Source: Deltaproteobacteria bacterium
Lineage (GTDB): Bacteria > Myxococcota_A > UBA9042 > DTJE01
Direction of reading: 5' to 3'
DNA length: 64,000 bases
Assembly (NCBI GenBank): GCA_029547805.1
Contig: JAKPOP010000003.1
Location: forward strand, 310,001-374,000
Under the pieces are notes generated by a model. The model searched no databases, was not told where the DNA came from, and saw only the letters and a program-made list of their open reading frames with translations. Made by a program: the position numbers and the translations under genes. Positions 36,887 to 40,068 of this stretch are shown here, one piece after another (position 1 is the first letter of the stretch; the number at the start of each line of letters is the position of its first letter).

Positions 36887-37678
36887 ATGGTGCCCGAAGG
36901 ATCGGGGTCACCCGTGTCCACGCCGCTCCGGGAACTGAGCATCGTGATCCCCGCCTACAACGAGGCGGATCGCATCGATGCGACCCTGGTCCAGGTGCTC
37001 CGGTTCGCCACGTCGGCCATCGAGGACTTCGAGATCCTGGTGGTGGACGACGGGTCCCGGGACGACACGGCCTCCCGGGTCGAGGCCTTCGCCCGGAGCG
37101 ACGCTCGGGTGCGCCTGCTGCGGAACGACCGGAACCGGGGAAAGGGATTCACGGTCCGCCACGGGGCTCTGGAGGCCTCGAAGGCCTACGTCCTGTTCAC
37201 CGACGCCGACAACTCGACCCCCATCGAGGAAATCCGGAACCTGGCCCCGATGGCCCATCCCCGGGCCCTGGTGATCGCCTCCCGGGCCCTGTCCCGCTCC
37301 CGGATGGAGGTCCCCCAGCCGTGGCATCGTCGTCTCATGGGCGTCACCTTCCGGTTCATCGTCCAGGCCCTGGTCGTGCCGGGCATCCAGGACACCCAGT
37401 GCGGCTTCAAACTGTTCGGACGGGAGGTGGTCCAGGCCGTCTTCCCCGACATGGCCACCGACGGCTTCGCCTTCGACGTGGAGGTGATCGCCCGGGCACT
37501 GCGCCTGGGGTTCGACGTGGTGGAGGTGCCGGTCCGCTGGATCGACGACCGTCGGTCCCGGGTCTCCCCGATTCGGGACTCCCTGCAGATGCTGCGGGAC
37601 GTCTGGCGCATCCGACGTCAGATCCGCCGGCTGTCGCCCGCGCCGGCGCCCGTTTCCTCCCCTCCTGGCAAGGTCTGA
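36887..37678 (+). CDS. GT2 glycosyltransferase (dolichyl/polyprenyl-phosphate glucosyltransferase type)
   Basis: About 263 residues, a soluble GT-A enzyme. It shows LSIVIPAYNEADRI, ILVVDDGSRDDTA, the metal-binding DxD in VLFTDADNSTP, and QDTQCGFKLF with GFAFDVEVIARA, the pattern of DPM1/ALG5-like enzymes that transfer a sugar from a nucleotide donor to a lipid phosphate. The ATG at 36887 has no ribosome site and overlaps a TGCTATGGT -10-like box; the GTG at 36914 preceded by a G-rich stretch may be the true start. The C-terminus is basic and may contact the membrane. The 3' end overlaps the convergent lipoprotein gene by 61 bases. Confidence 0.88.
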   Translation: MVPEGSGSPVSTPLRELSIVIPAYNEADRIDATLVQVLRFATSAIEDFEILVVDDGSRDDTASRVEAFARSDARVRLLRNDRNRGKGFTVRHGALEASKAYVLFTDADNSTPIEEIRNLAPMAHPRALVIASRALSRSRMEVPQPWHRRLMGVTFRFIVQALVVPGIQDTQCGFKLFGREVVQAVFPDMATDGFAFDVEVIARALRLGFDVVEVPVRWIDDRRSRVSPIRDSLQMLRDVWRIRRQIRRLSPAPAPVSSPPGKV

Positions 37679-39942
37679 GGAACCGTCCCGTCGAGGCACC
37701 GGATGTCCTCCTCGGATAGCGCCTGATCCCACAGGCTCACGTCGTCCAGGCCCCCCACGAACCGGTCCAGGTTCTCGGCGTCGGCGAAGACCCGGATGCG
37801 CCAGGGGAACGAGTTCCCGAGCAGCATCGGTTCCTCCACCCGGTCCACCTCGACCCCGTGGAGGAGCAGGCGCAGGATGCCCGTCCCGGCGTCCCAGGTC
37901 ACGACCACCCTGGTCCAGTCCCCCGCCGGGGCCTGCCCGGACACCGAGTGCACGCGGCCCGTGTCGTCGTGGAGGTCCACCCGGATCCGCCCTTGGTCCC
38001 ATGCGACCCGGAGGGCCCCGTGGCGGCAGGGTTGGCTGCCGTAGATCGTCCCGGCCCCACAGTAGGGACTGCCGGGGATCGCCGCGCCGCCGGTCCCCAG
38101 CCCCGGAAGCGGCCGGAACGAGGTCGGGTACGGCCCCGCCGGTCCCCCGCGATAGACCCGGGCCTCCAGGTCGTGACGAGTCCCATCCCAGGAACTGGGC
38201 ACGACCACCTCTGGCCAGCCGTCCCCATCGAGGTCCCCGGCCACCAGCCCGTGGTTGCCGTGGGCCGGCAGGTCCACGCGACGATCCGGGGAGAAGCCCT
38301 GCCGGGATCCGAAGTAGACCCGGGCGGGGACGTCCAGCGGGTCGATGGGCAGCCCGCGGTTGTCCTTGCGCCCATCGTAGAAATTGGCCATCAGCAGGTC
38401 GGGCCAGCCGTCCCCATCCAGGTCCGCCGCCGAGGCGTCGAGTCCCCCGAAGGAGGCAATCGCGACCCGGTTCCCGGGGGTGAAGCCACCGGGCCCCCCG
38501 GGGTAGATCCAGGACGAGACGTCGTATCGGTCGTCGGTGTAGTCCCCGGGTTGCCGCTCGTCGATGTAGGAGGACAACACGAGGTCCACGTATCCGTCCT
38601 GATCGAGGTCCATCGCGGTGTTGCCGTAGGACGAATCGGAGGGCAGAAGCAGGGGCGCGAGGGGATCAATGCCGCCGGGGCCATTCCAGAAGACGCGGCT
38701 CCAGTCGGGCGACGAGGCGTGACCCTGAAGGTTGCTGACCACGATGTCCGGCCGCCGATCCCCGTCCAGGTCGGCCACCGTGACCCCCCGGGGGTCGCCC
38801 CCGGGCAGTTCCAGGGACCGGCCAGGGTCAAAACCCCCGGGGGACCCGAAGAAGACCCGAGCGCCCTTCCCGTCCGTCAACACCCCGGCACCAAAGACGA
38901 TGTCCAGCCATCCATCTCCGTCCAGGTCCGCGATGGCGACCCCTCCGGATCCCGAATTGAGAGCCCCGGCCGGGTCCGGGACCGGCCCCTGGGGCGTTCC
39001 CCGGTAGATGTTGGTGCGCCAGGGGTCCTCCAGGCGATCCCACTGATGGGAAATCACGAGGTCCAGCCAGCCGTCCCCATCCAGGTCCCCGGCCGCCACC
39101 CCCGTGGCGGACCAGGTGGGCAACCGGATCGGCACCTGATCGAAGTCCCCGCCCCCCCGGTTCCTGTAGATGAACGAGTCCGTGCCAGACCCGGTCTCGT
39201 CGGAGAAGGCATTGGCCAGCACGACGTCCAGCAGGCCGTCCCGGTCCAGGTCCAGCAGGCCCGCCTGTTCGAAGACCGTCCGGGAACCAGGCACGTCTCC
39301 CGTTGGCGGCCGCATCCACAAGGCCAGCGTCCCGGCCGTCGTGAGGGCCCGGGGGCGTTCCACCGCAAGCCACCCGTCCCCCGCACCCGAGGCGGCGGCG
39401 CCCTGGACCCCGGGGATCGCCTCGAAGGGACCGGTCGGGACCGCGACGTGGCCGTTCCCCGTCAGGTCCCGGTAGACGCCCCCCTCCAACCGATCCAGCG
39501 ACCAGGCCGCCCAGGGGCGAGGCAACGGCCTGCACAGGGCCGGGAGGTCCTCCGCCGGTGGCCCGTCGGACAACGGGTCCGCCTCCGAGGTCCCGGTGTC
39601 CGCCGGGAGGTCGGCCGGTCCGCCTGGATCCCCGAAGTCTCCGGCGTCCTCGACCCCTCGGTCGTCACCCTCCGGGAGGTCGCCCCCCGGGACATCCTCC
39701 CGGGTGGGCAGTTCCCGGCTCCCATCCGGGACTGGGTCCCCAGAACCGAGATCGGTCAGGCTGCCGCCACACGTCACATCGGGACAGGAACAGCCCCCCT
39801 GGGCCCCACCGGTCGATCCGCAGCCGGTCCCGGCCAGGATGGATCCCAGGCACGCGATGGCGCCCCACGGGATGCCAGGGCGTCGGTACCTGCAGCCGAT
39901 GACCGCATCCCCAGGTCCCGTGCCGCCGTTTCCGCGACGCAT
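37618..39942 (-). CDS. Lipoprotein with FG-GAP propeller apparently inserted in a LamG-like domain
   Basis: 774 residues. The ATG at 39942 follows GAGGAGG six bases upstream; a longer reading runs back through the tRNA and is rejected. The signal ends ILAGTGC (Cys41; Cys31 is an alternative), then an Asp/Pro/Gly linker to about residue 130. Residues about 135-215 look like the first half of a concanavalin-type LamG domain (AAWSLDRLEGGVYRDLTGNG, GTLALWMRPP). Residues about 215-610 are FG-GAP/VCBS repeats (DLDGDGWLDLVISH type, Ca2+-binding loops) forming a probable beta-propeller. Residues about 625-745 look like the second LamG half (GDWTRVVVTWDAGTG, GGLDDVSLWDQAL). A carbohydrate- or protein-binding surface protein is inferred. 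Confidence 0.8.
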   Translation of the reverse strand: MRRGNGGTGPGDAVIGCRYRRPGIPWGAIACLGSILAGTGCGSTGGAQGGCSCPDVTCGGSLTDLGSGDPVPDGSRELPTREDVPGGDLPEGDDRGVEDAGDFGDPGGPADLPADTGTSEADPLSDGPPAEDLPALCRPLPRPWAAWSLDRLEGGVYRDLTGNGHVAVPTGPFEAIPGVQGAAASGAGDGWLAVERPRALTTAGTLALWMRPPTGDVPGSRTVFEQAGLLDLDRDGLLDVVLANAFSDETGSGTDSFIYRNRGGGDFDQVPIRLPTWSATGVAAGDLDGDGWLDLVISHQWDRLEDPWRTNIYRGTPQGPVPDPAGALNSGSGGVAIADLDGDGWLDIVFGAGVLTDGKGARVFFGSPGGFDPGRSLELPGGDPRGVTVADLDGDRRPDIVVSNLQGHASSPDWSRVFWNGPGGIDPLAPLLLPSDSSYGNTAMDLDQDGYVDLVLSSYIDERQPGDYTDDRYDVSSWIYPGGPGGFTPGNRVAIASFGGLDASAADLDGDGWPDLLMANFYDGRKDNRGLPIDPLDVPARVYFGSRQGFSPDRRVDLPAHGNHGLVAGDLDGDGWPEVVVPSSWDGTRHDLEARVYRGGPAGPYPTSFRPLPGLGTGGAAIPGSPYCGAGTIYGSQPCRHGALRVAWDQGRIRVDLHDDTGRVHSVSGQAPAGDWTRVVVTWDAGTGILRLLLHGVEVDRVEEPMLLGNSFPWRIRVFADAENLDRFVGGLDDVSLWDQALSEEDIRCLDGTVPQTLPGGEETGAGAGDSRRI

Positions 39943-39983
39943 GGGTGGCCTCCTCGAGCGAGGTCTCGTCTGTTCCGTGTGGG

Positions 39984-40068
39984 TGCCGGAGGTGGGAATC
40001 GAACCCACACACCCGCAAGGGGTACGGGATTTTGAGTCCCGCGCGTCTACCAGTTTCACCACTCCGGC
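39984..40068 (-). tRNA. tRNA-Leu (anticodon CAA)
   Basis: An 85-base class II tRNA. The acceptor stem is GCCGGAG / CTCCGGC with discriminator A at 39984. The anticodon arm is CGGGA-CTCAAAA-TCCCG with anticodon CAA (reads UUG). It has a long variable arm (GTACCCCTTGCGGGTGT) and a T-arm GTGGGTTCGATTCCCAC. The 3' CCA is not encoded (ACCCA follows). It stands 41 bases upstream of the lipoprotein ATG at 39942 on the same strand. Confidence 0.95.

Follow-up and report, generated by a model that had tools for sequence, protein, structure and literature searches.

A predicted surface lipoprotein from the Myxococcota in which an FG-GAP propeller is probably nested inside a LamG domain

In integrins, a vWA domain is inserted into a beta-propeller between blades 2 and 3 (PMC3192720), while in the prolyl oligopeptidase family a seven-bladed propeller (residues 77 to 404 in oligopeptidase B) is itself inserted in a second domain via two hinge peptides (PMC8533160). 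Sialidases and trans-sialidases combine a propeller and a jelly-roll lectin in one chain, and the lectin domains of the Vibrio cholerae sialidase flank its catalytic propeller (PMC12355970). Propeller blades of the FG-GAP type bear a calcium-binding DxDxDG loop (PMC8023676, PMC3123361). Here, we describe a protein that is related in plan to each of these systems. It is encoded in a 64,000-nucleotide stretch of a Myxococcota genome (contig JAKPOP010000003.1, positions 310,001 to 374,000; hereafter, the window). Like the sialidases, it has a propeller and a jelly-roll lectin fold in one chain; however, its propeller appears to lie inside the lectin fold, a nesting that is not seen in the V. cholerae enzyme. 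Whereas the integrin propeller is the host of an insertion, the propeller of the window protein would be the guest. The prolyl oligopeptidases differ in having an alpha/beta hydrolase as host and a propeller that gates an active site, while in the window protein the host would be a LamG jelly roll and no enzyme is recognized. Propeller insertion as such is therefore known from the prolyl oligopeptidases, and LamG as the host is a new variant; we found no description of an FG-GAP propeller inserted in LamG in the open-access literature.

The minus-strand open reading frame (ATG at 39942, stop at 37618) encodes 774 amino acids, and all peptides quoted in an earlier reading of the DNA, made from the sequence alone, fall within it. 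Its product is predicted to be a lipoprotein at the cell surface (Table 1), and the N termini of two orthologues (L003, with LVQAGC, and L006, with VLGCLAC) also look, by eye, like lipoprotein signals. The linker that follows the putative lipidated cysteine has a net charge of −19 over residues 42 to 135. At its 3′ end, the gene overlaps tail to tail, by 61 bases (37618 to 37678), with a convergent gene for a family 2 glycosyltransferase (36887 to 37678, plus strand). A tRNA-Leu (caa) gene (39982 to 40068) lies just upstream on the same strand as the lipoprotein gene, and the same neighbors recur in this arrangement around L003, which belongs to the same genus and is labeled Myxococcota. A 725-amino-acid open frame (37858 to 40035, plus strand) runs antisense to the lipoprotein gene and looks like a by-product of high-G+C coding sequence.

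Table 1. Features of the lipoprotein gene, with positions in the window
Feature	Residues	Positions	Strand	Basis or remark
Signal peptide	1-40	39823..39942	-	Hydrophobic stretch ending GTG-C41, lipobox-like, judged by eye
Lipidated Cys41 and low-complexity Gly/Asp/Pro linker	41-134	39541..39822	-	Predicted
LamG first half	135-228	39259..39540	-	Myxococcal LamG profile and PF13385 splice
Inserted seven-bladed FG-GAP/VCBS-type propeller	229-612	38107..39258	-	DxDxDG/R motifs, PF13517 and PF01839
Re-entry hinge	613-638	38029..38106	-	Conserved Cys628 inside
LamG second half	639-754	37681..38028	-	PF13385 profile 51-150, 53.2 bits
Invariant Cys at N-terminal edge of LamG domain	137	39532..39534	-	Candidate disulfide partner of Cys749
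Invariant Cys at C-terminal edge of LamG domain	749	37696..37698	-	Candidate disulfide partner of Cys137

The propeller spans about 384 residues, close to the roughly 390 given by the sequence-only reading. Its seven DxDxDG/R motifs (at residues 231, 286, 339, 391, 445, 507, and 570) are spaced 52 to 63 residues apart, and Pfam recognizes six FG-GAP_3 stretches, with PF13517 and PF01839 above the cutoff (120.9 and 86.0 bits, respectively). Seven blades of the DxDxDG type are shared with FG-GAP/VCBS calcium propellers such as those of integrin alpha, CRTAC1, and PVL-type lectins; in a profile search against solved chains, the nearest were CRTAC1 (9etn_A) and integrin alpha chains. In both structure models described below, the propeller stretch aligns to the seven-bladed lectins PLL and PHL with Z scores of 16 to 19, at low pLDDT. 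Calcium may stabilize the blades. Because propellers are also paired with LamG-like lectins in arabinanases and trans-sialidases, and Foldseek matches of a low-confidence model include trans-sialidases and the AbnA arabinanase besides CRTAC1, the nested module could be a glycosidase-type or lyase-type enzyme instead of an adhesin. We consider this rather unlikely, given that the sequence is of the FG-GAP/VCBS calcium-blade type and that no glycosidase or lyase family exceeds the Pfam cutoff (RGL11_C reaches 13.9 of 27 bits).

Judged by profile coverage, neither sequence flanking the propeller is a complete domain. With the intact protein as query, Pfam reports one Laminin_G_3 match (the concanavalin A-like lectin domain PF13385), covering profile positions 51 to 150 of 151 at residues 648 to 747, and no match is obtained with the first half (residues 135 to 228) alone. 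When residues 135 to 228 were joined to residues 639 to 754, with residues 229 to 638 removed, the score rose from 53.2 to 66.9 bits (+13.7; both values exceed the gathering score of 27.6 bits) and coverage grew from positions 51 to 150 to positions 3 to 150, so that both halves match in order. Equivalent splices raised the score from that of the whole protein in L003 (54.6 to 68.3 bits) and L006 (56.2 to 68.1 bits); in a planctomycete protein from Aeoliella straminimaris, the splice raised it from 65.8 to 81.7 bits, and all four splices extend from profile positions 3 to 5 to positions 150 to 151. Eight controls, in which the window N half was replaced by a shuffled version (five) or by a piece of the protein's own propeller (three), gave no gain (51.2 to 52.7 bits).

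An independent profile of 240 positions, built from 25 uninterrupted myxococcal LamG domains of relatives' genomes, places the window N half at positions 13 to 105 and the C half at positions 134 to 228, and the splice forms one continuous match from 13 to 228. The splice scored 44.7 bits, against a maximum of 30.9 bits among 300 shuffles, and the N half alone scored 14.0 bits, where shuffles gave at most 3.4 bits; none of the 300 shuffles reached the real score, and the same held for the three other nested proteins. In hhalign, the alignment of N halves matched uninterrupted LamG with a probability of 93.5 (E value, 2.3e-7), and the spliced form did so with a probability of 99.6. The spliced profile aligned with the solved chain 4qvs_A in one unbroken stretch (columns 21 to 210; E value, 6e-13). 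The N-half profile also matched an uninterrupted viral LamG domain (L094) at the expected place (E value, 2.6e-6), and that domain aligns to positions 4 to 211 of the spliced model. Weaker support came from a profile built from uninterrupted LamG domains of viruses (37.8 bits versus 33.1 ± 0.4 bits, with a maximum of 36.6 bits among 200 shuffles). Most LamG domains of the relatives are uninterrupted, matching roughly 150 profile positions within some 450 bases; in the window protein, 410 residues intervene.

These comparisons show that the flanks are homologous to the first and second halves of a single LamG domain, correctly ordered and with hardly any part lost or repeated. Complementary, incomplete halves in order are what an inserted propeller predicts. 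The proposal of the sequence-only reading, that the flanks are two halves of one LamG domain and the propeller a loop insertion in a jelly roll, is thus borne out at the level of profiles; each flank corresponds to half of a LamG domain, which contradicts two complete domains or unrelated folds. In our assessment, it is very likely that the propeller is nested inside the LamG domain.

Structure prediction, proposed earlier as a check, was informative in part. AlphaFold was run twice, with alignments of 2 and 8 sequences, and gave mean pLDDT values of 45.4 and 52.1, respectively. The LamG C half reached 76 to 93, and the N-half strand 74-82 (GTLALWMRPP) reached 76 to 81, the top value outside the C half, while the rest was mostly below 55. 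The alignment for the second run included uninterrupted LamG rows, which biases that run towards LamG. With the one six-row set of contiguous LamG rows used for this run, the N half was aligned correctly by MAFFT, but sets that were larger or differed slightly put it in the propeller, which weakens the second prediction. Fold searches with the models were filled by propeller matches and gave no LamG structural superposition. Therefore, the C half and one N-half strand were predicted confidently, whereas the confidence of the remainder was too low for the pairing of the two halves to be read from the models; from the profile matches, we infer that they pair in one sandwich.

The halves of one LamG domain might also pair between two molecules, and such a domain-swapped dimer is compatible with the sequence. 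It is nevertheless very unlikely, as closure within one chain would be favored by the short hinge and by four invariant cysteines (Cys137, Cys628, Cys639, and Cys749), the only cysteines of the folded part that are invariant across all three orthologues. The hinge is 88% identical to that of L003 and 65% identical to that of L006, values that exceed those of either LamG half.

The full architecture was found in 3 of 377 Myxococcota genomes searched with a profile; these belong to a single family (one genus is represented by two species and a second genus by one), and others gave propeller-only matches. Together with two planctomycetes, this census, which counts sequence-detectable relatives, agrees with the earlier view that the two folds are combined here in a rare way; searches of the Myxococcota phylum and of the order and phylum of Aeoliella otherwise returned mostly propeller-only matches. 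In L162, a weak LamG-like match precedes a propeller, but the sequence there is not LamG-like and was not counted. No plasmid relative was found. Frames of about 710 to 740 amino acids with an FG-GAP match recur in L002 (G000:C9:145419-145643), L015, L016, and L007, relatives at the family and class levels, and may form one conserved family.

The planctomycete A. straminimaris (L004/L078) encodes a protein with the same order of LamG first half, FG-GAP propeller, and LamG second half, and the same nested pattern occurs in a planctomycete relative (L155) that is 43% identical to it. The Aeoliella protein differs from the window protein in its length (more than 2,000 residues) and its lack of the conserved cysteines, and the two are about 31% identical. 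Moreover, in both planctomycete proteins the propeller is located one hairpin later, after GGWALNLAP, with the profile broken at 116|113 instead of about 95|112 as in the Myxococcota proteins. Because the break points differ in distant phyla, two insertions are suggested, the alternative being a shift of a single insertion. In L155, the similarity to the Aeoliella protein is lost near residue 1100 of the frame, close to where the second LamG half ends, and a frameshift may be the cause.

Tandem LamG domains are common in the relatives (for example, in frames of 3,758 and 5,390 amino acids), and the flanks could accordingly be remnants of two LamG domains on either side of a propeller, each without the opposite half. 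That reading requires losses that complement each other exactly, however, since the N half ends at about profile position 105 and the C half starts at about 112 to 136, with no overlap or leftover, and such complementarity would be needed for the window protein with its orthologues and a second time for the planctomycete pair. A single inserted propeller per lineage is simpler, and we regard the two-remnant alternative as having a very small probability, slightly below that of the swapped dimer.

The identities among the three nested Myxococcota proteins range from 51 to 72%, and the L003 orthologue is about 73% identical to the window protein. By part, the identity to L003 is 87% for the propeller, 63% and 67%, hence alike, for the two LamG halves, and 41% for the linker, the least conserved part. 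The similar divergence of the halves speaks for the nesting, as do the four invariant cysteines. The corresponding dN/dS ratios are 0.13 for the propeller, 0.21 for the LamG N half, 0.39 for the C half, and 0.48 for the linker; the propeller and both LamG halves are under purifying selection between the window protein and L003. The dN/dS values against L006 are less reliable, as synonymous sites are near saturation. The L006 gene adjoins a MurD-like gene, a neighborhood different from that of the window and L003, and no operon partner or conserved neighborhood that points to a function was found across the three loci. An unrelated low-complexity N-terminal segment, with the LamG-like part confined to the C terminus, would explain why Pfam is blind to the N half alone, but this reading is largely refuted and has next to no probability in view of the 0 of 300 shuffles in four proteins, the hhalign E value of 2.3e-7, the correctly placed match to uninterrupted LamG at 2.6e-6, and the dN/dS of 0.21.

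The explanation that we favor, with a probability of roughly 0.75, is a surface lipoprotein with two binding modules, in which a LamG hairpin was opened for a propeller. A flexible acidic linker would carry one concanavalin-type LamG beta-sandwich at the cell surface, and a whole seven-bladed FG-GAP propeller with DxDxDG motifs would have entered the opened hairpin between the strands RTVFEQAG and ALRVAWD. When a propeller is closed, its first blade adjoins its last, and because its ends lie side by side, the propeller can replace a hairpin turn and leave the sandwich unbroken. Two short strands, in place of one flexible linker, would hold the propeller and yield a rigid two-module surface binder, and disulfides Cys137-Cys749 and Cys628-Cys639 could clamp the ends of the domain as well as the re-entry hinge. 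The protein may bind a glycan or matrix outside the cell; we give an adhesin or lectin function about an even chance.

Domain databases see half of the LamG domain, and the architecture is therefore easily overlooked in annotation. If the nesting is real, a closed repeat fold has in nature been fitted into the hairpin of a jelly roll, apparently twice and at different sites, which would provide direct material for studying how one domain can enter another and leave the host fold intact, as well as a natural rigid two-domain binder. We somewhat favor the view that propellers entered LamG domains on two or more separate occasions, in the Myxococcota and the Planctomycetota, at neighboring hairpins, in which case the rigid coupling of surface binding modules would be recurrent and selected.
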